Position numbers and translations under genes: made by a program. Below are positions 1-56,303 of a DNA stretch of 64,000 nt, piece after piece (the stretch's first letter is position 1; every line of letters starts with the position of its first letter). Origin of the DNA: a virus; the IMG/VR virus record IMGVR_UViG_3300000228_000004, positions 1-64,000 of that record; one strand, 5' to 3'. The notes below the pieces were generated by a model, which was not told the origin of the DNA, did no database searches, and worked only from the letters and a program-made list of their open reading frames with translations.

Positions 1-560
1 TGTTTAACGGCTTCAAGGCAAATCTCATGTGTTTGGTCTTTGACGAACTCTAAAACCGAACCATCTTGTTTGACAGCTTCTAGGCAAATCTCATGTGTTT
101 GGTCTTCAACGAACCGTAAAGCGTACCCGTCTTCTTTGATAGCTTCAAGGCAAAGCTCAGGTGTCTGGTCTTCAACGAACTCTAAAGTCCACCCATATCG
201 TCTAACAGCTTCAAGGCAAAGCTCAGGGGTTTGGATTTTAATATACCGTAACGCGTACCCATCTCGTTTAACGGCTTCTAGGCAAATCTCAGGGGTTTGG
301 ATTTTAATATACCGTAACGCGTACCCATCTCGTTTAACAGCTTCAAGGCAAATCTCAGGCGTTTGAACTTTAACGAACTCTAAAGCGTGACCGTTTTGTT
401 TAACAGCTTCAAGGCAAATCTCAGGCGTTTGAACTTTAACGAACTCTAAAGCGTGACCGTTTTGTTTAACCGCTTCAATGCAAATCTCAGGTGTTTGGTT
501 CTTTACATACTCTAAATCCCGCCCATCTTGATTGACTACTTCAAGGCAAATCTCTGGTGT
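1..560. repeat. 66-bp in-frame tandem repeats
   Basis: About eight copies of a 66-bp unit encode the 22-residue repeats. Neighbouring copies are close to identical in pairs: 227-292 with 293-358, and 361-426 with 427-492. Such pairs point to recent copy-number change by recombination or slippage. There are no unique spacers, so it is not a CRISPR array. Confidence 0.85.
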
Positions 561-603
561 TTGAACTTCAGGTCTTAGTTTTATAAATTGTTCTGTGGTC
601 ATC
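1..603 (-). CDS. Tandem-repeat protein, DUF4116-like (partial, runs off window start)
   Basis: The minus strand is open from an ATG at 603 to the window edge, so the C-terminus is missing. After a short leader (MTTEQFIKLRPEV) the protein is a chain of 22-residue repeats of the form QTPEICLEAVKQNGHALEFV. This resembles the DUF4116 repeat (AVKxNGxALxYA), for which I know no biochemical role. A shorter paralogue with the same leader lies at 21767-22028. The phage promoter element lies just upstream at 621-667. The open frame is certain; the family name is a resemblance judged by eye. Confidence 0.8.
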
Positions 604-620
604 TTTATCCCTTTCTTTAT

Positions 621-667
621 GCTATATAATATATTATACCGTAAGTTAGCTTAAAGAGAGGTTAAAC
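621..667 (-). promoter_or_regulatory. Phage promoter element (recurrent family)
   Basis: On the minus strand a TATAAT -10 box is preceded by ACGG and by two TTTAA half-sites 11 bp apart (GTTTAAC, then CTTTAAG). This is one of the best copies of the window-wide element and sits directly before the repeat-protein gene at 603. Confidence 0.75.
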
Positions 668-730
668 GAACAAATGTTTAAAATTATTTTTGTGGGAATT
701 AGTGTTTACGAGGAGTTTATATTGAAGTTG

Positions 731-1005: not shown

Positions 1006-1050
1006 AATTCTTCCTTTTTTATTATTTAAGTCGGGAATTATGACAACCCA

Positions 1051-1072
1051 TATTTTATGATGTCATCTTCTT
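1051..1072. repeat. 22-bp direct repeat, copy 1 (downstream of endonuclease)
   Basis: Identical over 22 bp to 2954-2975. Read in the intein frame it encodes KEDDIIKY-like residues, then GLS and a stop. The two copies bracket the endonuclease gene and look like a footprint of its insertion. Confidence 0.85.
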
Positions 1073-2907
1073 ATTGTGTATTTTATGTTACCTGAGTCAA
1101 ATATAATTCTGTACCCGTTTAACATCATATTTTGTTCCTCAGTTAAACCACGCTCAAAATTATCAATTATACTAGCAAGTTTATGTTTCTGAAAGTGTAT
1201 TCTATTCTTCAAAGTGAATGTTTTATCAAAGTAGAATTTATTTGGTCCAGAAATGTTATCAAGATTGAATTCAGTACCATAAATATTTTCTTGTAAAAAA
1301 GTCCATCTTCTGTTCCCATATGAAACGAGGTCTCCGCCATATGTTTTCATATACTCGGATAGTAATTTCGAAAAACCGCCCCTGACTATTGTATCTTTTA
1401 ATGTACAAAATCTATGAAGTTCAATATCATTATTTTTAAATCTACTCTTCCCGACAGTGAAAACAGAAATCAAATTACCTTGATAAAATAACCCGAACCG
1501 AATACCAGAATTCATGGAACCCTGTAAGTGATTTTCTTCTAAGAAGATAATTGTATCTTTATGTTCTATATTTTCCACTGAACAATCTCTTGCGTTAATT
1601 CTGTTTTCACATTTATTCAGTTTTATTCTGATTTTACTCTTCCAAATATCCCTTTTAGTTTTATCGATCCATTCATCTTCAAATATATGGAATAAATGAA
1701 TCCCTTGTTCTTCACAATCATTGGTTTTATTTAGATGGTAGTTTTTATCATATTCAGGGGTATTAAATCTTTTGTATTTAGAAATTCCTCTACTGTGATA
1801 CATCAAGCCGTCATATTCTATGGCGAAATTTAATTCTGGTATATAAATGTCTAGTTCTTTACCATTAAGTATCTTTCTATCGTGTATGATTACTTCTCCA
1901 TCGTATATACTATGAATAAATTCAACTATCTCATTTGCTTGAGTTTCTTTCAGAAAATTCGTTTTATTGTACCCCAAACTTTCAAGTTCTGGTATAAGGA
2001 ATGTCCTTGATACAGAATAGAAATTTTCCATCTTAGATAGATTCATTCTTCCATTTTTCATGAAGTTTTCTTCTATATATTCTTTAGTTAGAAGTTCCCC
2101 GTTTTTAAAATCTTTAAAGTAGTAATGCCTGACACCATAATTTTCAATGAATGTGGATTGAAGGGTTTGGTACCAGTTCACATTCCTTTCATTCCATATC
2201 GATAAACCGATGTCTTCACCATATTTCGCAATACAAATTTCTTTACTGAATCTAGACTGGACTTCTGAAACTTTTTGTTTTGCTTCCGATGTACTAAGCC
2301 CCCTTTCTTCCCAGTATTTTGTTTGTGTCGGTATTAACCTCTCAGTCCTTTTTTCAGACCCCCAATATTTCTTGGCTCTATTTGATTGGATTTCACTTAC
2401 TTTATTATCAGCTTCTTTTTCGGTATTCCCTTTATCTAACCAAAATTGTTTTTTATTTTTTAGAGATTTATCAGTTCTTGATTTATTCGTTTCGTGATAA
2501 TTTTGTTCCCAATTACTACTGTGTTTTTTCTTATGGAATTCTTTTGAATTCGAGTCATACCTCATTTTCTTCTGTTCGTGTGTGAGCGATTTCATCTCTT
2601 CAGAAGCTAATTGACACATCAAATTATTATGTGTTTTGACCTTATTTTTGGCTTCTTCTTCAGAATAACCCCTAAATGTCCAGAATTTAGTTATAATTTT
2701 AGATTTAGGGAGTTTTCCATATATTGATTTATAGAGTGGTTTATAGAAGTATGTTATAGGGTATGATGAGTATTGGTTTTCTTTGAACCAATTTTCTAGT
2801 TCTGGGGTCAGTGAATTTAAAAATTTATCTTGCCCTTTAAGGAAATCTTTAAATTCTTCAGTGGTATAGAGTTGAAATATTGGTTTTCTTCTTGAAGTGA
2901 TTGTCAT
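1063..2907 (-). CDS. Large free-standing homing endonuclease (Vsr-like nuclease domain)
   Basis: A 614-residue protein whose C-terminal ~300 residues match the ORF at 34110-35903. The N-terminal half carries degenerate repeats of about 25 residues (KKQFWLDKGNTEKEADNKVSE and similar), probably for DNA recognition. A nuclease core follows (ELDIYIPELNFAIEYDGLMYH), resembling the Vsr/PD-(D/E)xK fold of fractured-gene homing endonucleases. Then comes a conserved module with HLQG, GKSRF and NRRW motifs that ends near YRIIFDSGN. It sits directly after the N-intein of the terminase-like gene and is flanked by 22-bp direct repeats, as expected for a mobile gene in a split-intein locus. Specificity is inferred, not visible. 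Confidence 0.8.
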   Translation of the reverse strand: MTITSRRKPIFQLYTTEEFKDFLKGQDKFLNSLTPELENWFKENQYSSYPITYFYKPLYKSIYGKLPKSKIITKFWTFRGYSEEEAKNKVKTHNNLMCQLASEEMKSLTHEQKKMRYDSNSKEFHKKKHSSNWEQNYHETNKSRTDKSLKNKKQFWLDKGNTEKEADNKVSEIQSNRAKKYWGSEKRTERLIPTQTKYWEERGLSTSEAKQKVSEVQSRFSKEICIAKYGEDIGLSIWNERNVNWYQTLQSTFIENYGVRHYYFKDFKNGELLTKEYIEENFMKNGRMNLSKMENFYSVSRTFLIPELESLGYNKTNFLKETQANEIVEFIHSIYDGEVIIHDRKILNGKELDIYIPELNFAIEYDGLMYHSRGISKYKRFNTPEYDKNYHLNKTNDCEEQGIHLFHIFEDEWIDKTKRDIWKSKIRIKLNKCENRINARDCSVENIEHKDTIIFLEENHLQGSMNSGIRFGLFYQGNLISVFTVGKSRFKNNDIELHRFCTLKDTIVRGGFSKLLSEYMKTYGGDLVSYGNRRWTFLQENIYGTEFNLDNISGPNKFYFDKTFTLKNRIHFQKHKLASIIDNFERGLTEEQNMMLNGYRIIFDSGNIKYTIRR

Positions 2908-2925
2908 TGGATTCTTTCTTATAGT

Positions 2926-3291
2926 TTATTTAGTGATGTATTCCGATAATCCGTATTTTATGATGTCATCTTCTTTGAGTTGAAATTCGACTTCTTGATT
3001 TTTTCCCAAACATTTTCCTATACCAGTAGCCCCAGATAATAATATCACCTTATATTTGTTGGTTTCATAAAATGGGGTTGGGTAGATGTCAACAAGTTGT
3101 TTTTTCCAAAAAGGGAATACCGCGTTACCTTTGTCTAAAGAACCACCCAGATAATATTCATCGGTTATGAACTCTTGAATAGTTGGTGGGGTTTCATTAT
3201 ACCCGTTTGCTTTGGAATATAAACTATAGAGGTACTTTCTTTCTTGTGAATTGATAGCCTTGACACCATTTTCATTGAGTTTATACGCCAT
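2926..3291 (-). CDS. Terminase large subunit, N-terminal fragment plus N-intein
   Basis: A 121-residue ORF. Residues 1-93 resemble the start of phage terminase large subunits (EYYLGGSL, FPFWKKQL) and end in a Walker A lead, GATGIGK. At Cys94 the extein stops and a 28-residue N-intein begins (CLGKNQEVEF...). It starts with the required Cys and resembles the shorter N-intein at 24344 (CLGSETQIPV). The insertion site is the residue after the Walker Lys. The matching C-intein and rest of the ATPase are not in this window: the next gene is an endonuclease, then an unrelated small gene. Terminase identity is by local similarity and is less certain than the intein. Confidence 0.65.
   Translation of the reverse strand: MAYKLNENGVKAINSQERKYLYSLYSKANGYNETPPTIQEFITDEYYLGGSLDKGNAVFPFWKKQLVDIYPTPFYETNKYKVILLSGATGIGKCLGKNQEVEFQLKEDDIIKYGLSEYITK
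2954..2975. repeat. 22-bp direct repeat, copy 2 (inside N-intein)
   Basis: This copy lies inside the N-intein coding sequence (EDDIIKY). It matches 1051-1072 exactly and marks the upstream edge of the inserted endonuclease module. Confidence 0.85.
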
Positions 3292-3293
3292 AA

Positions 3294-3479
3294 TTAATCT
3301 TCGTAAATATTACCATCAATGATGAGTGCTTTCTTTTGTTTTTCTTTATCTGTCGGACCGAAACCATTTCTGCTATACGGCGCAGTAGAAATCACGCCCA
3401 AGTCACCATAACCACCATCGGTATCTTCTTCTGTTGGTTTTTTCGTTTTTTCAACTTTTTCTATAATTTCTTTTAACAT
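3294..3479 (-). CDS. Small protein with MLKEIIE leader
   Basis: Sixty-one residues. I chose the internal ATG at 3479 because GGGAAGATT precedes it and the product then starts MLKEIIEKVE, like its leader-sharing relatives; a longer ORF to 3539 overlaps the upstream gene. The rest is acidic and glycine-rich (EEDTDGGYGDLG). Its stop is 2 bases from the terminase-fragment start, so the two are probably co-translated. It may be an internal head protein. Confidence 0.7.
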   Translation of the reverse strand: MLKEIIEKVEKTKKPTEEDTDGGYGDLGVISTAPYSRNGFGPTDKEKQKKALIIDGNIYED

Positions 3480-3495
3480 AATCTTCCCTGAATAT

Positions 3496-4086
3496 TTATT
3501 TTTCATACATTGAATTTCTGAGTTCTTCTTCAGCGTCACTTAGGAAATTTTCATCGGATAACAAAGTAGCTAATATACTATTCATTGTGTCATTCCCCTC
3601 AGCATCTTTAATAGATTCTTTAGCATGTAATGACATTAAGTTTGCCTCTAATGAACTGAAATCAACATCTTTTCTAATTTCCCTAATCATCCTAAAGGCA
3701 TCTGATCTCATCATCCTTGTATTGGTATATAGAAGGAGTAAATCACCTTTATTCATCTTATCAAGAATTTCATCATTAAACAGTTTATCTTCTATTTTAC
3801 CTAAAAACCCTTCTAGTTTTTGTAATTTAACCGCAGTCTGCTTTGCTATATTTGCCATAGCAAGGTCAATAGCAAGCTCTGCGGTCGCAACATCGCTAAT
3901 TATGCTTCTAGCTGGTATTTTTTTGTCCCTTACGAGGGACTCAGTTTCATCTTTTATCCCTTGCGTCATCAGAGAAACATCTGAATATTCTGTGTTTTCG
4001 ATAGATGCTTCTACTACTTCACCGCAAAACTCTTCAAGTTCTTTCATAGCAGCATCTAGCTCAAGTTCAATTATTTCTTCTTCCAT
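3496..4086 (-). CDS. Conserved-looking helical protein, unknown function
   Basis: A 196-residue, acidic, mostly helical protein (ELELDAAMKELEEF near the start; a long Ala/Leu-rich helix at about 75-110). It lies between gp52 and the terminase-like fragment. Position and helicity would fit a small terminase or scaffold protein, but no diagnostic motif is visible. Confidence 0.75.
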   Translation of the reverse strand: MEEEIIELELDAAMKELEEFCGEVVEASIENTEYSDVSLMTQGIKDETESLVRDKKIPARSIISDVATAELAIDLAMANIAKQTAVKLQKLEGFLGKIEDKLFNDEILDKMNKGDLLLLYTNTRMMRSDAFRMIREIRKDVDFSSLEANLMSLHAKESIKDAEGNDTMNSILATLLSDENFLSDAEEELRNSMYEK

Positions 4087-4104
4087 TTCATCACCCTCTT
4101 TAAA

Positions 4105-5448
4105 CTATTTAATTGATTTTTTGAGAGCTTCTAAGTCATCTTTCCATAATTGTTTTTCGGTTTTAGATTGAATGGTTTCTAGTTCAGATTTCTTTTCAGA
4201 CATCTTATTCATCAATTCATCTATTTTTTCCTTCGTTAAGCTATAAATCGGGAGCCTAAGTAGATAATCATACCCTCCGTCGAACTCTTTTATTTCGTTG
4301 AAATTCGATAATTGTGAAATGATTTCCGATTTAGTTCTTTTACTGATAATAATATTATCTTCGGTGACATTTTTTATAAATGAAATCTTAGAAACAAGAA
4401 ATATTATGTCTTCATTCAGTTGTTTGATTATATTTTCTTTTCTCTTGGTGTAAAACTCTTCCCTAATTTTCGCATATGTTAAAAAAAGTTCTTCTGGCGT
4501 TTCTGAAAGAAGGATTCTATTATCAACTCCCATCGTTGTATAGTTCTCAACAAACCGCTTGTCAGCGTCTCTTAATTTAAGTGCTGAAAGGATATCTTTT
4601 TCACTCATTGATGAAAAATTACGAGTGACCCTCACTCTAAAATTGAAAATATCATTTTCAGAACGGTCTTCATAATCAGAAATCACTTTATTGTCTTTCA
4701 GATCATCAAGTATATTCTGATAATCTTTAAGCGTGATACCGATTGGTATCTCTGTTATGTCAATGGTGGTTGAATTCACTATATTCATTGCGCCAGAAAC
4801 TATCCACTTTCTTTTATTAACTGTGTCGTTTTCTATAGTACCGTTAAAATTACTCCATCCTGGTTTAGGCACTTTTACTTTACCAGTATCAATGAATGTT
4901 TCCGTCATCTTTATAATTTGGGGCAAAGGTCTAGGCAATATGAGTTGCGCAAACCCGATGGCAATACCCATAGCACCATTCACTAATAACATTGGTATGA
5001 CTGGTACAAGGTATCTAGGTTCTATTGGAGTCCCTTCAAATTCTTGTTTCACTAAAATTTCATTGTCATCTTTATGAAATATGGTAGAAAGATATTTTTC
5101 AACAGAGGTCGATATATACCTATCCGCTGAAGACTCTGGTATGAACCTTTTACCAAAGTTTCCGTCTTCCTTTAAAAGGGGTAAATTATTTGAGCCTGTG
5201 TATCTTCTAGCCAAGTTCACAATTACTGGTGAAAGGTTATCTTCGCCGTGTATGTATTCTGTGTGCTCTGAAACAGTACTTTTTAATCTCGAAACTTTCA
5301 CTGAAGAATTCAAGTTCTTATCTAAAACAGTATAAATAACTTTCCTACCTGAATTTTTAAGCCCGTCTGACACTGATGCGATTTTTCTAAGACATTCATA
5401 AGAACTTGCGTCTATATACATCGTCGAAAAAAAATTAGAAATATCCAT
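4105..5448 (-). CDS. 52: DNA topoisomerase II medium subunit (gp52-like)
   Basis: A 447-residue protein of the GyrA/ParC breakage-reunion family. The N-terminus (KIASVSDGLKNSGRKVIYT) carries the conserved arginine region; the catalytic Tyr is expected in ESSADRYIST near residue 110. A GyrA-like core with PRYLVPVIPMLLVNG and GIAIGF follows, then a coiled-coil arm (about 290-420). It cuts and rejoins both DNA strands with the ATPase subunit encoded just upstream (5458-7272); the genes are 9 bp apart and probably co-expressed. The size agrees with T4 gp52 (about 440). Confidence 0.92.
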   Translation of the reverse strand: MDISNFFSTMYIDASSYECLRKIASVSDGLKNSGRKVIYTVLDKNLNSSVKVSRLKSTVSEHTEYIHGEDNLSPVIVNLARRYTGSNNLPLLKEDGNFGKRFIPESSADRYISTSVEKYLSTIFHKDDNEILVKQEFEGTPIEPRYLVPVIPMLLVNGAMGIAIGFAQLILPRPLPQIIKMTETFIDTGKVKVPKPGWSNFNGTIENDTVNKRKWIVSGAMNIVNSTTIDITEIPIGITLKDYQNILDDLKDNKVISDYEDRSENDIFNFRVRVTRNFSSMSEKDILSALKLRDADKRFVENYTTMGVDNRILLSETPEELFLTYAKIREEFYTKRKENIIKQLNEDIIFLVSKISFIKNVTEDNIIISKRTKSEIISQLSNFNEIKEFDGGYDYLLRLPIYSLTKEKIDELMNKMSEKKSELETIQSKTEKQLWKDDLEALKKSIK

Positions 5449-21771: not shown

Positions 21772-22028
21772 TGAATAAATATTTAAATTTTTCTTCAACT
21801 AACCGTGAAGAGTGCTCGTTTTCTTTGGTTGCTTCTATGCAAATCTCATGTATTTTGGTCTTTAACATACTGCAAAGTATAACCATTTCGTTTAACGGCT
21901 TCTATGCAAATCTCATGTGTTTGGTCTTCAACGAACTGTAAACTATATCCGTTTCGTTTAACGGCTTCTAGGCAAATCTCATGTGTTTGGTCTTCAGGTC
22001 TTAGTTCTCTAAATTGTTCTATTGTCAT
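21767..22028 (-). pseudogene. Short DUF4116-like repeat gene with a frameshift
   Basis: The ATG at 22028 gives MTIEQFRELRPEDQ, the same leader as the 603 gene, then two 22-residue repeats, and stops at 21846 after KDQNT. Compared with the sister repeats there is one extra A in an AAAA run near 21863. Removing it restores HEICIEATKENEHS and a C-terminus that ends at 21767. It may be a truncated 60-residue protein, a phase-variable gene or an assembly error. Confidence 0.6.
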
Positions 22029-23206: not shown

Positions 23207-24280
23207 TTACGCGTATTCTTGAACCAATCTTTCCCAATCTGATAATCCAGCCTTTTTTATTGCTATAGCGGCGACAACTGCTCTCATAGTAAGTGGCGCA
23301 GTCCCAGCTGAAAGTCGCTCTAAAATAGTTAATTTCACATCCATGTCAACCTCTGGTTCAATATATGGAAGAATAGATTTTATTCTATATATTACATCTT
23401 CTCTTTTCAATTGAACATCCATAAAGAAACTTCTAGACATAATTGCTGACATATTCGGGTCTTTCTCAAAGTCTGTGGCTGGTTTATTGGTGATAAATAT
23501 GATTCTTGAGGAAAAGTCAAATTTACTTGGTAGCTTTATTTTAGTACCAACATCTTCAGGTCTTTCTCTTAGAGCAGTTTCCAGTTCAATTAGGTATTCT
23601 TCTTTATCACTAGGTTCCATGAGTTCTAGGTTCACCGTTGCTCTACTTGGCCACTCTACTTGTCTCACTTGATAAGTATCAATTGCACCCTTCAGTATAT
23701 TAACCGCATCTTTATCACTCCAAACTGAGTCACTGTCATCATAAACGATAGTTTTATCGTTTCTGTTGATGAATAAATCCATATATAACCCAAATGGTGA
23801 TAATTTAGCACCCTTTCTGTGTCTCCATTTAGCATCCGGACCTTCAGGGGAACCGAGAATATCTTTCATCGTTTTTTCAACATGGAAAGTGTTGTGGTGG
23901 ATAAATCCTTGAGAATCTTGGTAAAGGTGAGTTTCTGAATCAACTGCTAAGTCATATACTAATTCTTTTCCTGATTCTTCTATACCAGTAATGGTAGCTA
24001 ACCCGCGTTTCATAGGTAAAGTGTCACCGACCTTTAATTCTTTTACCCATTTTTGTGAATCCAATCCCATCAACGCGTGTTCATCAGCCACTCTAAATGT
24101 CGCTTTATCAGTTATTATTTTTAGGATTGGTTCTTCTTTTACTACCATCCCTACTACCCTTACAAATTCACCATTTTCATCTAAGACATGAAATTCTGTT
24201 TTAGGTGTGTAACTTTCGTATAATTTAAATTCGTGATTTTCTTTTTCTGATATTGTATCAAAAACTTTTTTTATTTCCAT
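23207..24280 (-). CDS. C-intein plus C-terminal half of an AAA-type ATPase
   Basis: A 357-residue ORF. Residues 1-130 are a large C-intein: a block B-like segment (KIITDKATFRVADEHALM, ~55-71) and blocks F/G (VYDLAVDSETHLYQ ... FIHHN), followed by Thr131 as +1 residue. The C-extein (227 residues) has IVYDDSDSVW as probable Walker B, then FSSRIIFITNK as a sensor-1-like strand, and an Arg-rich region. With the N-half encoded just upstream, trans-splicing would rebuild a Walker A of GAAGLGK-T and a 500-residue ATPase. The start has its own RBS (GGGAAGAC). The substrate of the ATPase is unknown. Confidence 0.85.
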   Translation of the reverse strand: MEIKKVFDTISEKENHEFKLYESYTPKTEFHVLDENGEFVRVVGMVVKEEPILKIITDKATFRVADEHALMGLDSQKWVKELKVGDTLPMKRGLATITGIEESGKELVYDLAVDSETHLYQDSQGFIHHNTFHVEKTMKDILGSPEGPDAKWRHRKGAKLSPFGLYMDLFINRNDKTIVYDDSDSVWSDKDAVNILKGAIDTYQVRQVEWPSRATVNLELMEPSDKEEYLIELETALRERPEDVGTKIKLPSKFDFSSRIIFITNKPATDFEKDPNMSAIMSRSFFMDVQLKREDVIYRIKSILPYIEPEVDMDVKLTILERLSAGTAPLTMRAVVAAIAIKKAGLSDWERLVQEYA

Positions 24281-24321
24281 AATGTCTTCCCATAGTATTT
24301 TATTTTTATTTAAGATATCGA

Positions 24322-24338
24322 GTGAACTTAGAGTTCAC
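24322..24338 (-). other. Hairpin between the two intein-split halves
   Basis: A perfect 7-bp inverted repeat GTGAACT/AGTTCAC with a 3-nt loop, 5 bases after the stop of the N-half gene and before the RBS of the C-half gene. It may tune relative translation of the two halves or stabilise the first message. Confidence 0.5.
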
Positions 24339-24343
24339 CCCTA

Positions 24344-25204
24344 TTATAGCCCGAAGACAGGTATTTGAGTTTCAGAACCTAAGCATTTACCCAACCCAGC
24401 TGCACCAGCGACGATAAGACCGTTTGCACCACCAGTTGCTACAATTTTTGTTAATTTCTCGATATCACCAAAAACAAGCTCTGGGTCAGACCATTTCTTT
24501 TCAGAAAGAACTTTTTCAGCACCTTTAAAAACAGCCTCTGTTGAATTTTTTTCAACCGTATTTTTTTCAACCTGGAAGCCCTTGTATTCTTCTTTATCCC
24601 ATTTTCCAGCATCTTCTAGTTTATTGATGTAACCTTGGTAGGTATCTTCAGCTTCTATGTATTCTACGCCCATTGCAGTACCGTAAGCAATCATCTTTTT
24701 AGGGGGTTTGTTACTATCTTTTATCGCTTCTGTTAATGGGTAACTCCCTTTCGAAGGTTCAAAAGTGTTATTTTCATTGACATGCCCACCGCTTAAAATG
24801 ACATCTTTCAACTCTTTAACCACATCAATAGCATTCATCCAGTCAGCTATTTTAATAGTTAAAGTCGGGGTATCCCATCTTTTTTTACCATCTTTCGGAT
24901 CCCAGTAATCAATAACATTGATTTGAAACAAAGAAGATTTTGCTTTTTGGAGCCAACCAAACCTAATCATAAACCCAGCTTCATTCATGAATTTAAAACC
25001 TTGACCAGCACCTAAGCCTTTTTTAGTGAAACTTTCTTTTCCCAAAGAACCACCCAACATTTTGAATTCACCACCATTTAAATGATGCCCAAGTACTGTA
25101 GCCAAAAGGGTTGATACCTTTTGCAGTGAAGCTTCACTGAACTTTGCTTCATTGAGCGAAGTTTCGCTAATTTCTAATTTTTCCAATATTCTTTTTAAAA
25201 CCAT
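24344..25204 (-). CDS. N-terminal half of AAA-type ATPase plus 13-residue N-intein
   Basis: A 286-residue ORF. Residues 1-273 form the N-extein, ending in GLIVAGAAGLGK, the start of a Walker A loop. Residues 274-286 (CLGSETQIPVFGL) are the N-intein, beginning with the nucleophilic Cys and followed at once by a stop. The N-terminus MVLKRILEKLE resembles the MLKEIxE leader of the small proteins. The partner lies 63 bp downstream, with no endonuclease gene between. A split this close to the start of an intein is atypical; I know of comparable N-pieces of about 16-25 residues. Confidence 0.85.
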   Translation of the reverse strand: MVLKRILEKLEISETSLNEAKFSEASLQKVSTLLATVLGHHLNGGEFKMLGGSLGKESFTKKGLGAGQGFKFMNEAGFMIRFGWLQKAKSSLFQINVIDYWDPKDGKKRWDTPTLTIKIADWMNAIDVVKELKDVILSGGHVNENNTFEPSKGSYPLTEAIKDSNKPPKKMIAYGTAMGVEYIEAEDTYQGYINKLEDAGKWDKEEYKGFQVEKNTVEKNSTEAVFKGAEKVLSEKKWSDPELVFGDIEKLTKIVATGGANGLIVAGAAGLGKCLGSETQIPVFGL

Positions 25205-30804: not shown

Positions 30805-31902
30805 CTATTCGAAGTTGACTTCTATCTCACGAATTGGATATCCAGCAGATATATATTCATTCAACCTTTCATAAGAATGTTTGAGAACATAATTCTTATT
30901 TGTCTCTCTACCAGATTTTGATTTCGTACTAAAGTCATCGATGAAATCAAAATATCTCATCATATCTTTGTCTTCGTGGAGCCTCATTCCTCTTCCGATT
31001 GATTGATTTAATCTGATTGATGATTTTGTACTAGAAGTCGCGAAAAAGTTATGTAATCTTTTGACATTCATCCCAGTCGAAACTGTTCCTGCGCTTCCTA
31101 TGATTATTCCGTCATCGACCTTCTCAAGTAATGATCTAATTTCATTCCTCATTTCTCCCTCAATAGACCCCTTTATAAGGTAAATATGGAAATCACTGAG
31201 TACCTTTATTCGTTCTATTTCACTATCACTAAAGAATTTTTTCAGTATTTTGATGTCTTTTTCGGTTAAATCAGTTAAGACAAACAGGTTATTAACATCA
31301 CTTGTTTTTGAAAGGAAAGTTTCAACCCGTTTTGGCGTCACTTTTTCCATAATTTCAGGGGCATCAACATTGAATTTTTCCATCAGAATTAACTCAAGTA
31401 AGTATGTACCATGTGATATAGAGTTATACATCACTAAAGAATTTCCATATTTTTGTGTAGTTTGTATTACCATTTTTGCTATAAACCTATTCCGCTTGGA
31501 GTGTTCTTCTATGAACTTAGTTTCCTTTTGGTAGTTGTTTAATTTCTTCACCACTGCCTTATCTGATAATGAATAATTCATATAAACTGTGACGATAGTG
31601 ACTGGTGTAGCTAACCCTCTTTCAATAAGCCCTTGGGGGGTGATTATTCTTTCAGATTTTCCCAAAGTTGATGAGAGCGAGAATCTTCCTTCGAATGTCT
31701 TCGGTAGAGTACCCGTGAGCCCAACTTTATAAAGGCAGTTATTTGATATCTCTAGGAGCTTCGTCAGTGACTCCCCTGTCGCAAGATGACAATTAGAAAC
31801 ATTTAAGCCTTCTGCAAAATAATTATGATTATCTTCAACGTGTAAATTATATGTGTCCCCTGAATAATCGATTTCTTTTATTGAAATTACATTAGACATC
31901 AT
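30805..31902 (-). CDS. uvsW: C-intein plus C-terminal half of UvsW helicase
   Basis: A 365-residue ORF. Residues 1-37 are a C-intein (DTYNLHVEDNHNYFAEGLNVSN) ending in Asn37, with Ser rather than the usual His before it; the +1 residue is Cys38. The extein starts CHLATGESLTKLLEISNNC, which lines up with T4 UvsW CHLATGKS...NNC, then KVGLTGTL, and ends with the motif VI-like QSIGRGMRLHEDKD. Splicing to the half at 33114 would rebuild the DECH box (VDE-CH). UvsW branch-migrates recombination intermediates and unwinds R-loops. The gene overlaps the endonuclease remnant by 11 bp. Confidence 0.92.
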   Translation of the reverse strand: MMSNVISIKEIDYSGDTYNLHVEDNHNYFAEGLNVSNCHLATGESLTKLLEISNNCLYKVGLTGTLPKTFEGRFSLSSTLGKSERIITPQGLIERGLATPVTIVTVYMNYSLSDKAVVKKLNNYQKETKFIEEHSKRNRFIAKMVIQTTQKYGNSLVMYNSISHGTYLLELILMEKFNVDAPEIMEKVTPKRVETFLSKTSDVNNLFVLTDLTEKDIKILKKFFSDSEIERIKVLSDFHIYLIKGSIEGEMRNEIRSLLEKVDDGIIIGSAGTVSTGMNVKRLHNFFATSSTKSSIRLNQSIGRGMRLHEDKDMMRYFDFIDDFSTKSKSGRETNKNYVLKHSYERLNEYISAGYPIREIEVNFE

Positions 31903-33074
31903 CGTAATCCTCGATGCTTTTTATGAGTTTTTCAAGAGAATTCTTATACCATATTTTAATTATTTTTTCTTTTTTAAAAATAGCCACTTTAAATGAATTC
32001 TCGCCATAAAAGGTTATTTGAAAAAATAGCCCCATTTCTTTCATCTTAAACTGTAAATTGTTTAATTGTTCTTTCAATTTTTCTCCTAGATTCTTTTTGA
32101 TGATATTATATTTTTCTTTGATTTCCGTTAAATGTTCGATAAAATATTTTTCCGTGATAATTTTAAAATTACCACTTGAAAATTCTTTTGCTGCGATAAA
32201 CTTGACGAAATTCATTTCTGAATTTATTTCTGAATTTGGTTTTATTTCATATAAAACCCCATCTTTTTCGAAATCAACTATATATTCTATTCGTTTTATG
32301 TAATTCATAAGGTATTCTTATATTTTCATAATTGTAAGTTGGGTGGAGTATGTGGAATATTGCTTCCCAAGAACTCCTAAATGGTAGACCATTCACATAA
32401 CACCTTGTTTTACCCCAAGAATTCGTTACTGCTGGGGTAAAATCACCATTTAATATTTTCTTTTTCATTATCATAGATAATTTTTCGTTCCTCTTTCTTA
32501 AAACTTCTCCTGACATCCTTGAGTTAGGGTTCCTGAGCCCAATAATATTTCGAGAATGTATTTTATTTTCACATTCAAGAGAACAAGTTTCCCGATACCT
32601 AACATGCCTCGTTTTAAACATTTCAAACATTTCGCTCCGTTTTAGACGTTTTTCACAATTTTTACAATTACCCAAAGGATCATAAAAATCTTCTACTTCG
32701 AGATCATTATTCCTATAAAGGGCAGTTTCTGATCTCCCATATTTTAGGAAAATTTTAAAATACTTATTGCCTGATAATAAATGCATACTTTCGTGTAATT
32801 TACTACTGCTGAATTTCAATTTTTTTAATTCTTTTTTAAAATCTTCATCAGAAATTTGTGTAATATTTTCTGGAAAAAATACGGAGTCCAATTTAATGAA
32901 ATCAAATTTTTTTAATTGCTTGAATGAGAATTTCAAATTATCATCGTCTCTTATGTTGTATATTTTTCTAAATTTTAATACTATTTTTGTTTTTATCGAA
33001 GGATGTTTGAATTGTTGAGGATTTTTGAAGAATTGTTTAAAATCTTCTTTTGTTTCGATGTTTTGGATAAGCAT
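31892..33074 (-). pseudogene. Homing endonuclease inside the split uvsW, broken by a 2-nt loss
   Basis: Two overlapping ORFs (32274-33074, 266 residues; 31892-32308, 138 residues) read as one nuclease. The first has paired zinc-knuckle Cys (CKNCEKRL, CSLEC), a DNA-binding segment (GLRNPNSRMSG), and the start of a nuclease domain (FRSSWEAIFHILHP, IRIPYELHKTNRI). The second continues YIVDFEKDGVLYEIKP with the catalytic D..EIK. The reading frame is lost in an ATATAT tract at the junction; one more AT would give NRIYIVDF. This may be a decayed homing gene, or two parts that still associate. Confidence 0.75.
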
Positions 33075-33113
33075 GTAATTTCCTTGCTTTATAATATAAG
33101 GTAGACCTTAAAT

Positions 33114-34094
33114 TTATTTAATTTCAAAAATACTATCTCCAACCACTAACTCATCAACTCTTTTCCAAACTTCCCCAGTAAAAACTTTATGGTTGCCAGT
33201 TATCCTCATAACTTTCCCGTTTTCAGTTTTCACCTCGAACATTTTTTCTTTGGAAATATTTTTGTGAATTTTCTTAATGGGTTTATATTCTAAAACGCCA
33301 GTTTCTTCGTTTCTAGTTAAAACTAGATTCCCAGTTTTTAAATCTTTAATCTTAACTTTATAATTCGGTACATCAACCAATGTATCTGGGTGTAGGCACT
33401 CATCAACTAAAACATAATCGAGAGCTGAAAATTCAGTACTATTCATCAACATAGCTGACTGCCAAGTAGAAGTTGTCATTAATTTATCGAATGTTTTGAC
33501 CTTCCCAGCAAATATGGTATGGAAATGTTTATCGAGGTCTTCTTCAGTCATTCCGTAACTAGAAAAATCCGAGCGCATTTGTTCAGCCAACCCAACATTC
33601 GGTACTATCAATAAACCTCTTCTTTTCTTCCTTGCGTGGAGCGTCATGATCAAATAACAAATAAGTGATTTTCCGCTCCCAGTAGCTGATACCAATATAG
33701 ATCTCGGGTGGTTAAATGAGTGTAAAACTGCGTCTATTTGATAATCATATGGTTCAAACGGTAAACCCACTACTTTGACATGTTCTAGTATTTCTTCTCT
33801 AGACACATTCTCTTGTACCCTGATTGGGGAATATTCTTCAGATATATTATCCGCGTATCGTTTTAATATAGTCGCAACCAATCCCTTTGGAATTTGCATA
33901 CTCATATCTTTGTTCATTTTAAAAAAATACTTTTTTCCGTCCCAAATTCCCGCACGAAATTTTGGAGAGAATCGATATCCTTCGACATAAACAGATAAAT
34001 CATCCATCAACTTTATTCTTAGTTTAAGAGCTTCTTCGTCATTTTCTTCAAACTTTATAACGGAGAAGCTTTCATTTTTATCTTCTATTGTCAA
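33114..34094 (-). CDS. uvsW: N-terminal half of UvsW helicase plus N-intein
   Basis: A 326-residue ORF with a TTG start. The extein (232 residues) contains the UvsW N-domain pattern (VEGYRFSPKFRAGIWDG), Walker A VSATGSGKSLICY, LIVPNVGLAEQM and TTSTWQSAM, and stops at YVLVDE, the first half of the DECH box. The N-intein (94 residues) starts CLHPDTLVDV (block A) and has MRITGNHKVFT as block B. The partner C-intein is at 31902. In between lies a homing endonuclease remnant, the classic fractured-gene order. Confidence 0.92.
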   Translation of the reverse strand: MTIEDKNESFSVIKFEENDEEALKLRIKLMDDLSVYVEGYRFSPKFRAGIWDGKKYFFKMNKDMSMQIPKGLVATILKRYADNISEEYSPIRVQENVSREEILEHVKVVGLPFEPYDYQIDAVLHSFNHPRSILVSATGSGKSLICYLIMTLHARKKRRGLLIVPNVGLAEQMRSDFSSYGMTEEDLDKHFHTIFAGKVKTFDKLMTTSTWQSAMLMNSTEFSALDYVLVDECLHPDTLVDVPNYKVKIKDLKTGNLVLTRNEETGVLEYKPIKKIHKNISKEKMFEVKTENGKVMRITGNHKVFTGEVWKRVDELVVGDSIFEIK

Positions 34095-34109
34095 TTAAAA
34101 TCCTTTATG

Positions 34110-35903
34110 TTATTTTACTTCATATTTCTTAAAGTAAACTTTGTTACCTGAGTCATATATCTTCCTATAACCATTATTGTACATATTCTCAGTTTCTGAT
34201 AAATCTTTGTCAAATATATCTAGGATTTTATGGAGCTTATGTTTTTGGCATTTGTTCCTTGACTCCAGAAGCATAGACCCGTCCTTAAAATAGAAGTAAT
34301 TCGCTTTGGATGAATGGCTATATGTGAAACCGATAGCATCATAAAGGTTTCCCTGTGACCATCTCCTATTCGCGTATGTGACCAATGATTCTGGGGAATA
34401 GTTTTTCTCGAAATATTTTAGTAACTTACTCCCAGCACCAACTACAGTATGGTTCAATTTTGAACAAAATCTAATCAATTCATATTGATATTCTTTTGAA
34501 AACCTCGACTTTCCGAAAGTCATCAAACTCACTAAAGAACCAGCGTGGTATAACCCTATTCGAATTGATGATAGCCCCTCACCTTGTAAGTGGTTTTCGT
34601 TTTCAAAATTACTAGCAACCCTGCTAGAAACTTCCATTATATCACATTTTCTAGCATATATTCGCTTAGTTTTACCAAGCTTCGAATTTAGGACTGATTC
34701 CCAAATCTCCCTCTTTTGCAACCATTCATTTTCAAATATATGAAATAGCTGAAAGCCATTTTCTTCACAAAGATCAGTTTTATCTTCGTGCACTGACTTT
34801 AATAGTTTCTCTTTCGTCGAATTATCGAACATAGAATACTTAGATTTCCCAAAAGAATGGAACATCAACCCGTCATATTCGACGCCAAACTTATGTTCGT
34901 AAGAGATGATATCTATTTCTTTCGGCTTTATTAAACTCCTGTCATTTAGTAAAAAAGACTTATTGCCCCCTAAAAAATTAAAAATTTCAACCTGAGTTTT
35001 CCATTTGTTATCAGGGGACACCCCGAATTTTAACATGGTTATATTTGCGTTTGAAAGTGACACATTGAAAAATTCCATATATTCACCCCTTTTGAATTTG
35101 TTGATGCCGTCTTTGGTCGTGATAAAATTTTTTGCTATGTATCGTTTATTATTGAAAAATACAAAATTTTTGATATGCGACTGAGAAGAATACGGTGTAC
35201 CGCATTTCTTTAAGTTCGTTTCTTTTATTTTATCCTTTACCTGTTCTGTCATAGCTGGGTTTATCACGCCATATTTTTTTAAGTTAGTTTCTTTTATTTT
35301 CTGCTTGACTTCTTCGTTCTGTAAGCTACATTCATAACCGTATCTAATGAGGCTTGTCTCTTTAACTTTTTGCTTTACCTGATCTGACTTTAATTGGTGT
35401 TCATGCCCATATTTTTTTAAGTTCGTTACTTTAGTCTTTTTATTAACTTCTTCGTTCTGTAAGCTACATTCAGAACCATACCTTTCAAGGTTCGTTTCTT
35501 TGGCTTTTTGCTTTACCTGTTCTGACTGAGAAGAATGTAGCGTCCCGTATTTCTTTAAGTTAGTTTCTTTTATTTTCTGCTTGACTTCTTCGTTCTGTAA
35601 GCTACATTCAGAACCATACCTTTCAAGGTTCGTTTCTTTTATTTTATTCTTTTTTTGATGAGACCCAGAACTACAATGAACCGAGCAAAAGGTTTTGTAT
35701 GATTTGTACTTAAATTTTATCGGTTTACCACATTCACGAAGTGGTGGTTCAAGTATTTGGTGTTTCACCGAGTACAAAAATTCTTGAATAGTTTCAAAAG
35801 GGCGTATGTCAATATTCAAGGATTTGATAATTTCTGTGGATTTTGTACTCATATGCCCAATTTTTGTGATAACCCCGATATCACTAAGATCTTCTATTGT
35901 CAA
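34110..35903 (-). CDS. Large homing endonuclease with KETNLxKYG repeats
   Basis: A 597-residue protein starting at TTG (35903) after AAGGGGATATTA. Residues ~100-240 are about six 24-residue repeats (QKIKETNLKKYG..., SEQVKQKAKETNLERYG), which are common in phage homing proteins and likely bind DNA. The nuclease core is KEIDIISYEHKFGVEYDGLMFH, and the C-terminal module (HLQGEG, FGKSRF, NRRWSQG, YRKIYDSGN) matches the 1063 ORF. The first 15 nt, TTGACAATAGAAGAT, are identical to the start of uvsW just downstream. Confidence 0.82.
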   Translation of the reverse strand: MTIEDLSDIGVITKIGHMSTKSTEIIKSLNIDIRPFETIQEFLYSVKHQILEPPLRECGKPIKFKYKSYKTFCSVHCSSGSHQKKNKIKETNLERYGSECSLQNEEVKQKIKETNLKKYGTLHSSQSEQVKQKAKETNLERYGSECSLQNEEVNKKTKVTNLKKYGHEHQLKSDQVKQKVKETSLIRYGYECSLQNEEVKQKIKETNLKKYGVINPAMTEQVKDKIKETNLKKCGTPYSSQSHIKNFVFFNNKRYIAKNFITTKDGINKFKRGEYMEFFNVSLSNANITMLKFGVSPDNKWKTQVEIFNFLGGNKSFLLNDRSLIKPKEIDIISYEHKFGVEYDGLMFHSFGKSKYSMFDNSTKEKLLKSVHEDKTDLCEENGFQLFHIFENEWLQKREIWESVLNSKLGKTKRIYARKCDIMEVSSRVASNFENENHLQGEGLSSIRIGLYHAGSLVSLMTFGKSRFSKEYQYELIRFCSKLNHTVVGAGSKLLKYFEKNYSPESLVTYANRRWSQGNLYDAIGFTYSHSSKANYFYFKDGSMLLESRNKCQKHKLHKILDIFDKDLSETENMYNNGYRKIYDSGNKVYFKKYEVK

Positions 35904-51206: not shown

Positions 51207-52388
51207 TCAATGCGTTTTCAACCACTCATCGGTTTGTTTTATTTCAGTATCTGAATCATTTGGATTTCGTTTATACCTATTTCTTGGTCTTCCAGTTTTC
51301 TGTTTCACAGAGACTATTTTTTGTAATTCACAGAAACTGTTTTCACACATCATAACATTTAATTTTCGATCTTCCTCTGGTAAATGGTCAAAAAGTTCAC
51401 TATAATCAATGTGAAGTCCGCGTTTTTCCCATTCAGTCTCTATATTATCCCTGACCCAGAATAATGCTTCTTCGTGGGTCATACCGTCCCTGTCTTCCAT
51501 TAAAAGGTCTATCCCTCTATCACATCCTGGCCCAGACACTACGAATTCATTTTCACTGAACTTGAATTCTGGTATATATGTTAAGTCAACAAATACTTGG
51601 TACGCCAAAAACCCAGCCAATCCTGGGATTTCTCTCAAAATATTGAATACTTCCTCTTGAGTATTCGCCCCTTGAACTCGAGTGGATATATCCGTGTTTT
51701 TAACCCATTGTATCATGTGTATCATCCTAGTTGGCATATTTTTTTCTACACCAACTATTTCATACCCTTCATTTTCTTTAATATACCCCTTTGCTTCTTT
51801 CCAGGTCATTTCTTCTGTGTCAATATGACCTTCTTTTCTTACCTCAACCACCATACCCGAATTCGTGCATTCGTACTCTAATGTTTTAGGGAAAGCCCAA
51901 CTTGCTTTGAGCCCACCAGTGTTAAATGCTGGTGTGAAAAATGCATATTTCGGATTTTCTTTAGCATATTCGATAAATATTTCACGGAACGCGTCTATGT
52001 CTAAATTGTCAAAATCTTCTATGTAACCACCAAATAATTCTGATGTACTAGACTTGTTATATGTTCTGAAGAAGATAGAATTGAGGATCTTTACTTCTAG
52101 TGTTAGATTCGGGTTTGTGCTAATATTCTTAATCAACCATTTAGACTCTCTATCGAGTTCACGCCTTACATTAGTGAATCTATAATTCTTGAACACTTCA
52201 TCGTCTGTCCATTCTTGTTGTGGTAATTTTTCAATTTCTTTTCTTTTGTGTATATTGTGTCTTTCAGACATGAACAAATTATGATATCTTAGCACCTCTT
52301 CATTTAAAATCGGTTTCGCGTTTTTTATCTTTTCGATATCAACACCACAATATCTAATATCGGCTTCCTTTGTTTTCATTAAAACCAT
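51207..52388 (-). CDS. Alpha-glutamyl/putrescinyl-thymine pyrophosphorylase-like protein
   Basis: 393 residues. A DNA-glycosylase-like helical fold: FRTYNKSSTSELFGGY (~105), then a helix-hairpin-helix-like LREIPGLAGFLAYQVF (~255) and VVSGPGCDRGID (~290), the GPG..RG motif of the aGPT-Pplase group. Such proteins are proposed to displace pyrophosphate from activated hmU and attach glutamate or putrescine. It lies between polymerase and dUTPase genes and overlaps the polymerase start by 10 bp. Confidence 0.75.
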   Translation of the reverse strand: MVLMKTKEADIRYCGVDIEKIKNAKPILNEEVLRYHNLFMSERHNIHKRKEIEKLPQQEWTDDEVFKNYRFTNVRRELDRESKWLIKNISTNPNLTLEVKILNSIFFRTYNKSSTSELFGGYIEDFDNLDIDAFREIFIEYAKENPKYAFFTPAFNTGGLKASWAFPKTLEYECTNSGMVVEVRKEGHIDTEEMTWKEAKGYIKENEGYEIVGVEKNMPTRMIHMIQWVKNTDISTRVQGANTQEEVFNILREIPGLAGFLAYQVFVDLTYIPEFKFSENEFVVSGPGCDRGIDLLMEDRDGMTHEEALFWVRDNIETEWEKRGLHIDYSELFDHLPEEDRKLNVMMCENSFCELQKIVSVKQKTGRPRNRYKRNPNDSDTEIKQTDEWLKTH

Positions 52389-53548
52389 TCCTCAAGTTTA
52401 AAATTTTGCTTCATATCATAACCAACTGCTTCTAACATAAGGTTAAGTGGTGATATGAAATAATCTTCCCACATTTTACCCCTATCAACATATTTTTCAA
52501 GCCCAGAGTCTGTTATAAAGTCAGAATCTAGAAACCCGATTATATCATCACCTAAAATGTTGGGTTTCTTTAAAATACAATATTTTATTTTATCACTGTC
52601 TGTTATTTTAGGGTATTTGGATAACCCAGTTCTTTCTAAAAAAATATTGTAATTCATTGCCGCCCTTACATTCATTGGCGCAGTTAAAATTTTTCCATTT
52701 TTCTTAGTGGTGAATTTACCTATACCCCCCTTATAATCCAAAGACCCGATACCAGAAACCCTGCATATGTCACCCAATGGTGCTTTGTAGAATTTCTCTT
52801 CTATCTCAGATATAGAAGCAATCGTTTCTTTTGCATCGTTATCTAGAATTACATTCACCATATCTTTGAGATATTTCCTACAAAAGGGCGGAGTAGAAGA
52901 TCGTACTATCTCCAACCCAGTGACCGCCAATTTAGGGTCATCGACAAGTATAGACCCTTCGTCCCAAACGGCACGCAAAGCATATTTTTTCTTTGCAACA
53001 AACATCCCTTTATCGGCAATTTTTTCAAGTTTTGCCCCGATGGGCTTGGCACTAAATGCGTTGAAATTGTCTGAGAAAGAATCTATGTATTCTTGGACCC
53101 ATACATCGAGGTATTTATGATCAAAATTAACAAGTTTATCAAGTATTTCGTGATTATTAGCGGTGTCGAATTTTTTTACTAATTCATTAAGAGTAAAATA
53201 CACAGAGTCGGTGTCACCATAAACTACAAAGTCAATATTGGTATTAAGAACACTTCGTAACTTCCCATTTACATAATTCGCCAATCCTTGTATAAATATC
53301 CTACCGTTCCCAGTGATACTTGCAGCAACATCTCGATTGAATAGTAAAAAGTGTATATTTGCTAGAGCACCATATAATGAGTTCATCGAAATCTTTAGAG
53401 CCATCTGATATACATCGAAATAAGCAATTCTAGTGTCTATATATTTCATATCTGCCGTTAAACCACTAACATCCAAATCGTTGATTTTATCAATCGTCAT
53501 TGAACCGTCTTCTATACCATCGTAAATTTCTTCTATTGTCATGTTCAC
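52379..53548 (-). CDS. 43: DNA polymerase, C-terminal piece (gp43C)
   Basis: 389 residues: a leader (MTIEEIYDGIEDGSMT) then family B motif B, KISMNSLYGALANIH (~55); motif C, FVVYGDTDSV (~108); a KKKYAL thumb motif (~180); and a C-terminus with LMLEAVGYD. It corresponds to the half of T4 gp43 from the fingers tip onwards. It must pair with the 58401-57136 piece. No intein is visible at either edge. Confidence 0.92.
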   Translation of the reverse strand: MNMTIEEIYDGIEDGSMTIDKINDLDVSGLTADMKYIDTRIAYFDVYQMALKISMNSLYGALANIHFLLFNRDVAASITGNGRIFIQGLANYVNGKLRSVLNTNIDFVVYGDTDSVYFTLNELVKKFDTANNHEILDKLVNFDHKYLDVWVQEYIDSFSDNFNAFSAKPIGAKLEKIADKGMFVAKKKYALRAVWDEGSILVDDPKLAVTGLEIVRSSTPPFCRKYLKDMVNVILDNDAKETIASISEIEEKFYKAPLGDICRVSGIGSLDYKGGIGKFTTKKNGKILTAPMNVRAAMNYNIFLERTGLSKYPKITDSDKIKYCILKKPNILGDDIIGFLDSDFITDSGLEKYVDRGKMWEDYFISPLNLMLEAVGYDMKQNFKLEEWF

Positions 53549-53559
53549 CTCTTAATTAA

Positions 53560-53602
53560 GTTAAATTATAGTAAAAATGACTTAATTAAAACTTAATTAA
53601 CA
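53560..53602 (-). promoter_or_regulatory. AT-rich repeats and promoter-like element before the polymerase C-piece
   Basis: Three TTAATTAA(G) repeats surround CTATAATTTAAC on the minus strand; the CTATAAT could be a -10 box with TTTTAATTAAG upstream. About 20-35 bp before the polymerase C-piece start. Confidence 0.4.
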
Positions 53603-53613
53603 ATCATTAAAGA

Positions 53614-53629
53614 ACCGTCACTCGACGGT
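53614..53629 (-). terminator. Hairpin, possible terminator
   Basis: A perfect 6-bp stem ACCGTC/GACGGT with a 4-nt loop, followed on the minus strand by TCTTTAA. A weak intrinsic terminator between the decayed cargo gene and the polymerase C-piece. Confidence 0.45.
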
Positions 53630-53698
53630 ATTATTCTTTTCTACTTTACCGCAGTAATTTTCCTCAGCTGTCACATTTTATGCTTAACAAAAATACCA

Positions 53699-53940
53699 TC
53701 AATCTTGCTCTTCCCAATTACCCCAATCGTTATTCTGATATGCATTAAACCCTTCTGACCATAATATGGCTAGAACTCGTTTCGAAATGTCCTTGTAAAC
53801 ATTAAATGAGTCAGCTTCAAAAAGGGTCACAAAGGGCGAGTGTCAATTTTTCTCGAACCCCGACCACTTTCAAGGCATAGATCAGCAACTCTTTCAGCTT
53901 CTTCCTGAAGCATTTTTTCAAATTGAGTAAATGTATTCAC
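53699..53940 (-). pseudogene. Second copy of the 54578 gene, frameshifted
   Basis: A GTG start gives NTFTQFEKMLQEEAERVADL, then after about 35 codons the match to the 54578 protein moves to another frame (FEADSFNVYKDISKRVLAIL, then WSEGFNAYQNNDWGNWEEQD). Length 242 bp against 240 bp in the intact copy. A one-base indel near 53830 explains it. Confidence 0.75.
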
Positions 53941-53959
53941 GCCACATCCTCACAATTCA

Positions 53960-54268
53960 TTAAGCTACTTTCTTTTCAGCCATATAAGTTTCTATTTCTT
54001 CTTGAGTAAGAACTCCTTCTGAGTATATAATACCAGAATAACCGTCACTAGCAGCATTATTTTTAGCGTTGTAAATGTTTGTTATAAGTGAACCGATACT
54101 TTTAGGGCTTCTGTTGATTTTCTTGTTACCCTTTTCATGTTCCCAAGACTGCCCTACCTCTAACACATAACTGAAATATTTGATCAACTCTTCTAGAGTA
54201 CCGATTTCTGAGGGATAATCTCTTCCTGATTTTCTCTGGTTGATTTTGAATATTTTTACTTTTGCCAT
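53960..54268 (-). CDS. Unknown 102-residue protein
   Basis: MAKVKIFKINQRKSGRDYPS, then a helical domain (GTLEELIKYFSYVLEVG) and a basic loop (KKINRSPKS). Its 31-bp leader region is identical to that of the 57074 gene. Cargo of the polymerase gap; function unknown. Confidence 0.75.
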   Translation of the reverse strand: MAKVKIFKINQRKSGRDYPSEIGTLEELIKYFSYVLEVGQSWEHEKGNKKINRSPKSIGSLITNIYNAKNNAASDGYSGIIYSEGVLTQEEIETYMAEKKVA

Positions 54269-54290
54269 TTTAGACCCTTTATGTTTAATT

Positions 54291-54336
54291 ATTATATAAT
54301 ATTATACCGTAAGTTAGCTTAAACCTTGCTTAATTT
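54291..54336 (-). promoter_or_regulatory. Phage promoter element
   Basis: ATTAAGCAAGG, TTTAAGCTAA, CTTACGG, TATAATATTATATAATAA on the minus strand, before the 54268 gene. Confidence 0.7.
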
Positions 54337-54353
54337 TAAAAAATTCCACTTAT

Positions 54354-54436
54354 TTATGCATCGACTTCTTTCAATTTACCCTGAAGTACCTCATATATAA
54401 GCATGCGTCTTCTAGGAAGTTTAATTCTTTTTGAGA
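54354..54436 (-). pseudogene. Fragment of the polymerase middle-piece 3' end
   Basis: The frame RRRMLIYEVLQGKLKEVDA, then stop, matches the C-terminus of the polymerase middle piece (KRKMLMYKALQAKLKTV) at about 10 of 17 positions, and the similarity extends a little upstream (ISKRIKL). It is followed by a promoter element and a MAK... gene, the same order as after the real end at 57136. Confidence 0.75.
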
Positions 54437-54448
54437 TATGCCGAAATC

Positions 54449-54523
54449 TCAAGAAGTTTCGTTAATCTCTTTTATGGTCATTTCACCATTTTCTATTTTC
54501 AGACAAAGTTCATTGAAATCCAT
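54449..54523 (-). pseudogene. 24-codon ORF resembling the polymerase C-piece start
   Basis: MDFNELCLKIENGEMTIKEI and four more residues. IENGEMTIKEIN parallels IEDGSMTIDKIN at the start of the polymerase C-piece. It lies after the intact 54578 gene, as the real C-piece start lies after the frameshifted copy. Probably the 5' scar of a second C-piece. Confidence 0.55.
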
Positions 54524-54550
54524 TTAATAAACCTTACATTATTTTCATCT

Positions 54551-54577
54551 ATTATACCAAAAAATATTAAAGTTTGC
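54551..54577 (-). promoter_or_regulatory. Promoter-like element
   Basis: ACTTTAATATTTTTTGG followed by TATAATAGATG on the minus strand: one half-site plus -10 with the usual spacing. Confidence 0.45.
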
Positions 54578-54817
54578 TTAATACTGGTCTTCACCTGGAT
54601 ACTGATTTCCAAAACCTTGGATGGTACTGACTCCTTCTGAATTTAGGATTATCCTAATTCTTCTGTAAATTTCGTTTGTCACATCTATCGAATTTACGTC
54701 GAATATTGAAATGATCTGAAGAACATTTACCTTAGTTTGGCCACAGCCGTCTAAATATACATCGACTACCCTTTCAGCTTCGGCTTGTATCATTTGTTCA
54801 AGTTCAGAAATACGCAT
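54578..54817 (-). CDS. Unknown 79-residue helical protein (intact copy)
   Basis: MRISELEQMIQAEAERVVDV, then a second helical half ending GFGNQYPGEDQY. Paralogue of the frameshifted copy at 53699. Function unknown. Confidence 0.72.
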   Translation of the reverse strand: MRISELEQMIQAEAERVVDVYLDGCGQTKVNVLQIISIFDVNSIDVTNEIYRRIRIILNSEGVSTIQGFGNQYPGEDQY

Positions 54818-56266: not shown

Positions 56267-56303
56267 GATTTTAATAGCGTATATTCCAGTTCGGTGATAT
56301 CAC

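Follow-up and report, generated by a model that had tools for sequence, protein, structure and literature searches.

A candidate split intein with a 13-residue N-fragment at the Walker A motif of a phage nrdC.10-like ATPase

In the 64,000-nt stretch of viral DNA analyzed here (the window; positions 1 to 64,000 of IMG/VR record IMGVR_UViG_3300000228_000004), the gene for a T4 nrdC.10-like AAA+ ATPase is divided between two ORFs whose facing ends, taken together, resemble a class 1 intein. Based on sequence comparison, we assign a probability of about 0.86 to the reading of this arrangement as a natural, atypically (S1) split intein that would splice in trans, in which case two separately made proteins would probably join into one working enzyme. 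An ATPase split at its Walker A motif by an intein had been proposed in an earlier note on this DNA, and the ORFs, the junctions and the empty and contiguous alleles of related phages agree with that proposal. S1 split inteins are already known as a kind of element; what appears to be new is an N-fragment shorter than any natural one that we found reported.

Organization of the split gene

Both ORFs lie on the minus strand in the same orientation, the first (25204..24344) encoding 286 aa and the second (24280..23207) encoding 357 aa. The N-terminal ORF ends in GAAGLGKCLGSETQIPVFGL followed by a stop codon, with a Cys at residue 274, and its boundary GAAGLGK/CLGSETQIPVFGL-stop (a slash marks extein-intein junctions throughout) leaves the 13-residue N-piece that the earlier note had described. 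The C-terminal ORF starts with MEIKKVF and presents HHN at residues 128-130, with TFHVEK coming next; coordinates and translation likewise bear out the 130-residue C-intein ending in FIHHN, the Thr that follows it and the 63-nt gap between the ORFs (24343..24281). The two halves share one reading frame, in which TAA, TAG and TGA codons lie between them, and a 9-bp hairpin stands directly after the first two of these three stops; a second perfect copy of this hairpin was not found within the window. Joined to one another, the exteins amount to 273 + 227 = 500 aa (Table 1).

Table 1. Features of the divided ATPase gene, in window coordinates.
Feature	Position	Strand	Basis
N-extein: N-terminal 273 aa of T4 nrdC.10-like AAA+ ATPase, Walker A end GAAGLGK	24386..25204	-	ORF; 59-67% aa identity with L001-L004 region; phrog_1250 (weak)
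Putative N-intein, 13 aa, CLGSETQIPVFGL; Cys1 and CLG motif	24347..24385	-	ORF; CLG start common to related inteins
Stop codon and 63-nt in-frame gap, stops TAA/TAG/TGA	24281..24346	-	ORF-free; similarity search against fetched loci
Hairpin GGGGTGAACT-CTA-AGTTCACTC after tandem stops	24320..24340	-	MFE -11.5 kcal/mol, z -2.3
Weak Shine-Dalgarno-like GGGAAGAC 5' of C-half ATG	24284..24291	-	Duplex energy and 100-nt fold
Putative C-intein, 130 aa, MEIKKVF...VADEHALMG (block B)...VYDLAVDSETHLYQDSQGFIHHN (blocks F and G)	23891..24280	-	54% identity with L006 intein; profile matches to inteins
Block B (motif N3) TFRVADEHALMG; His68 present, Ala65 at N3:7	24065..24100	-	Alignment
C-extein, 227 aa: Thr+1 completing Walker A, then IVYDDSD (Walker B-like), rest of ATPase	23210..23890	-	74-78% identity with L001-L004, 62% with L006; phrog_1250 E=3e-22

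The host gene and its uninterrupted homologues

The phrog_1250 matches of the two halves, weak for the N-half, are accompanied by tblastn relatives in 1154 phage records, including an Aeromonas phage 25 homologue annotated as nrdC.10, and the host gene is identified by sequence as a T4 nrdC.10-like AAA+ ATPase of phrog_1250. The insertion point is uninterrupted in eight other phages from the same part of the family, namely the four closest IMG/VR homologues (L001-L004) and four more distant ones that also enter the count (L040-L042, L063). This empty site reads GK/TFHVEK in seven of the eight and GN/PFHVEK in L003, and the P-loop is likewise uninterrupted in still more distant family members (L043, L065-L068). 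The exteins therefore meet exactly where the intein would leave them, with Thr+1 completing the Walker A motif, and the GK/T junction named in the earlier note falls precisely at this point. That note had also held that homologues contiguous over the region and free of intein blocks would speak against a split intein; such homologues exist, and since they display the empty site while a further relative (L006) carries a contiguous intein, they support it instead. Two of the intein-free homologues show peculiarities of their own. In L003 (3990-4010), the motif reads GIGNP, not GIGKT, so that either the Walker A is damaged or the sequence is in error at two bases, and in L063 (3989-4945) the homologue stops inside the Walker B-like motif (IVYDDS-KLLAA-stop), possibly marking another insertion or intron site.

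The contiguous intein of L006

The same ATPase gene in L006 (IMGVR_UViG_3300026521_000291) harbors, at the same GK/T point, a contiguous mini-intein of 147 aa with junctions GIGK/CLGGGTPIKTTLDKSAHTIQDIF...YGYVHHN/TFHVEK. Over 130 codons, the window C-intein shares 54% identity with it, and the proportions of matches at the three codon positions (0.64/0.75/0.48) indicate that the intein is constrained as protein rather than as DNA. Given this identity at the same site and the uninterrupted state of homologues at the proposed junction, the resemblance of the C-piece to inteins is judged to exceed chance. The ATG of the C-half lies precisely at the point from which homology with the L006 intein continues, and a direct join of the 13- and 130-aa pieces aligns with the L006 intein, being a few residues shorter. 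Divergence between the two alleles is similar throughout (N-extein 54%, intein 54%, C-extein 62% identity).

In searches for relatives, this split allele turned up in no other phage. By sequence, L001-L004 are closer to the window gene than L006 is, yet they lack the intein, and in a tree of the exteins, whose inner branches are weakly supported, none of 200 bootstrap trees joined the two genes that carry an intein as sisters. The distribution of the intein across ATPase relatives thus appears patchy. That the element is settled rather than invading can be taken only as a suggestion, given this patchiness, its absence from the closest relatives by extein sequence, and the presence in the same record of split genes in which homing endonuclease genes are retained.

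Intein motifs, profiles and fold models

The candidate intein has Cys at position 1, following GLGK, as does the L006 intein, and its C-terminus (FIHHN/T) provides the terminal Asn130, the penultimate His129 and a Thr as +1 nucleophile. Block F (VYD110...ETH118LY) contains both Asp110 and His118. Block B reads AxxH in place of TxxH, with His68 kept and the Thr replaced by Ala65, and the same is seen in L006 and L008. The block B Thr is commonly conserved in class 1 inteins and is not strictly defining for them. Nevertheless, Ala65 constitutes a real caveat for splicing, because the T106A substitution in the PolB16 intein badly impaired splicing (PMC10189870). The window N-intein begins with CLG, a start common to the inteins of L006, L007, L008, L026 and L027 and to the TerL-like N-half of the window.

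Single-sequence scans against Pfam and NCBIfam gave weak intein matches or none, and a family profile was required. The profile used to search the PDB was built from four relatives; a further alignment, with the L032 intein, was misaligned and set aside. Inteins stood at the top of the profile matches, with PolB16 as the best sequence match (2e-6), followed by Pho RadA (8e-5), gp41-1, Cat and VidaL. For the model of the L006 intein (pLDDT 74), all 42 of 42 Foldseek matches at E <= 0.001 were inteins or, in one instance, an intein-like Hint domain. AlphaFold models of the L006 and window inteins both have Hint-like C-parts, and the N-piece is not placed confidently in either; in the window model, which was tethered by the normally untranslated gap, its pLDDT is below 50. 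When bacterial and archaeal genomes were scanned with the intein alignment, no relatives were found. Taken together, motifs, profile matches and models identify the element as a class 1 intein (Hint domain) that is predicted to splice.

Split type and length of the N-fragment

Natural atypical splits occur either after strand 2 (S1; VidaL, 16 aa, and PolB16, 15 aa) or after helix 1 (S2; AceL TerL, 25 aa) (PMC13014065). Alignment of the window C-piece to PolB16 begins at chain residue 32-34, a few positions inside the C-fragment of that intein, and the split site is therefore assigned to the S1 type. The 15-aa N-fragment of PolB16 was described in 2023 as the shortest characterized (PMC10189870) and was still termed "record-short" in 2026 (PMC13014065), so that the predicted 13-aa N-fragment lies two residues below the shortest natural one we found reported in the open literature. 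The earlier note was right to consider 13 residues very short, but the range of 16-25 residues that it gave for known short N-pieces has too high a lower bound, PolB16 having 15 (PMC10189870, PMC13014065). A fragment of 13 aa is feasible, since the artificially split M86 intein works with an N-fragment of 11 aa (PMC13014065). The other N-pieces that we counted are all longer, at 20 aa in the UvsX-like gene of L007, 28 in the ClpA/B-like gene of L008, 28 and 31 in the clamp-loader genes of L026 and L027, and 28 in the TerL-like N-half of the window.

Proposed splicing and alternative explanations

In the proposed working, both halves would be translated from one message, the C-half from its own ATG and perhaps with help from coupling to termination of the N-half. 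The 13-residue strand would dock on the C-intein and complete the Hint fold, after which Cys1 would perform the N-S acyl shift, Thr+1 would receive the N-extein and Asn130 would cyclize with the participation of His129 and Asp110. Ligation of the exteins would then yield a 500-aa ATPase with its Walker A motif (GAAGLGKT) intact. Neither half alone contains a complete P-loop, and ATPase activity should therefore depend on splicing. Initiation at the C-half appears weak: its Shine-Dalgarno sequence (GGGAAG) forms a duplex of -4.2 kcal/mol, versus a gene median of -5.65, and an equally good duplex is found at 26% of all ATGs. When 100 nt are folded in isolation, this site is paired with GTCTTC, which belongs to the final codons of the N-intein (P about 0.9, z -2.6), and we might guess that such pairing couples translation of the two halves; because the pairing is lost once longer upstream sequence is folded, sequestration of the ribosome binding site is to be taken as a hint.

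The same weak ribosome binding site, together with an in-frame gap containing three stops and the missing block B Thr, would also be expected of a decaying gene, in which a contiguous intein had been disrupted by stops and production of the ATPase had ceased. We consider this improbable, given that both halves are otherwise open and well conserved, with a C-extein 74-78% identical to that of intact homologues, that the catalytic residues of the intein are retained, that the C-half ATG coincides with the resumption of homology to the L006 intein, and that related split inteins whose halves have no gene between them occur in L027 and in the UvsX gene of the same record.

The common frame of the two halves, the CTA codon that precedes the stop and recurs in frame before the C-half start, and the hairpin behind the stop could alternatively point to ribosome hopping or read-through across the gap, which would produce a contiguous, cis-splicing intein. 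A shared frame has a one-in-three chance, however, and three in-frame stops would have to be passed; the would-be landing site for hopping matches over only three bases, and hopping would add residues to a direct join that already fits the L006 intein. With no real landing match and the better fit of the direct join, this explanation was rejected as very improbable. Even less credence is given to a sequencing or assembly artefact of the metagenome contig: the allele comes from a single contig, and a second copy was not found, but a base error cannot create a 63-nt non-coding stretch with its three stops, its hairpin and a start codon, and both flanks are intact. A split intein acting in trans thus remains the preferred reading.

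Origin of the split and other divided genes

The absence of an endonuclease gene reported in the earlier note was confirmed: the 63-nt gap contains no ORF, and a similarity search of it against all fetched loci, including those with homing endonuclease genes, returned no meaningful match and no endonuclease relic. Because the gap is free of such a relic and the contiguous L006 allele also lacks an endonuclease, direct conversion of a contiguous mini-intein to the split form is possible. Under the full proposition, which is tentative and which we rate somewhat short of even odds, the natural split intein works, has in its 13 residues the shortest N-fragment known from nature, derives directly from a same-site contiguous mini-intein without endonuclease insertion, and makes a two-gene ATPase dependent on trans-splicing.

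Related inteins split near their N-terminus were observed at the P-loops of ClpA/B-like, clamp-loader and UvsX-like genes. In L008-L011 (around 2700-5245), a related intein whose N-piece has 28 aa splits the ClpA/B-like ATPase at the P-loop, and an endonuclease-like ORF lies between the two halves. Clamp-loader genes at L026:6439 and L027:3108 (minus strand) carry atypically split inteins at GK/T, with an endonuclease-like ORF between the halves in L026, absent in L027, where the gap is 86 nt; the two are possibly successive stages of one element. The record itself contains several further divided genes. Just beyond the window, a UvsX-like recombinase (L044:363-1902; record 64363-65902, minus strand) has a canonical split intein (N-part CGTNKMTVKTKEGRKS..., C-part MKVKSVNIKG...LISHN/S) with a 91-nt gap and no endonuclease. 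A canonical split intein also divides the UvsW helicase (window 30805-35903). Between the helicase halves lies an endonuclease-like ORF (33074-32274), and upstream is a large homing endonuclease gene of phrog_3339 (35903-34110). A TerL-like N-half (window 1026-3291) ends in GIGK/CLGKNQEVEFQLKEDDIIKYGLSEYITK, a 28-aa N-intein, and is followed by a phrog_3339 endonuclease gene with 47-nt direct repeats on both sides (1026-1072 and 2929-2975), one of them within N-intein codons; the corresponding C-half was not found in the record. The DNA polymerase (window 52379-59512) appears to be distributed over three ORFs (59512-59099, 58401-57136 and 53548-52379), with a small ORF between the first two, and this first break may represent a degenerate intein or intron. 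Proteins with tandem PEICLEAVKxxGxxLxFVxxQ repeats are encoded at window positions 40-700, near the contig start, and 21846-22028 (minus strand).

Significance and comparison with known systems

A natural N-fragment of 13 residues, within reach of peptide synthesis, would offer a useful basis for developing protein ligation tools. The occurrence of split, contiguous and empty alleles at one site of one phage gene makes the origin of a split intein directly testable, and the host would be a phage ATPase whose P-loop is completed only after translation.

A close counterpart of the window allele is the L006 mini-intein, which has the same host gene and site, a similar C-part and no endonuclease, but is encoded in a single uninterrupted ORF. 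Among characterized elements, the PolB16 OarG intein (PMC10189870) has the same atypical S1 split after the first strands, a long C-intein and class 1 motifs; it differs in its 15-aa N- and 168-aa C-fragments, its Ser1/Ser+1 nucleophiles and its DNA polymerase host, compared with 13 + 130 aa, Cys1/Thr+1 and an AAA+ ATPase in the window. The atypically split VidaL, AceL TerL, GOS TerL and Cat inteins share the short N-fragment, Cys1 and a metagenomic origin, VidaL (16 aa) being also of the S1 type, whereas their N-fragments span 16-30 aa and AceL and GOS TerL are split at S2, after the first helix. Fractured genes of the AceL NrdHF type (PMC7891396) are likewise divided into two ORFs, each bearing an intein half at the break, but carry a homing endonuclease gene where the window has only 63 nt. 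Finally, the P-loop inteins of phage TerL (PMC5050341) are inserted, as here, between the invariant Lys and Thr of Walker A (GK/T); their host is a terminase, whereas the window intein is split and lies in an nrdC.10-like ATPase.
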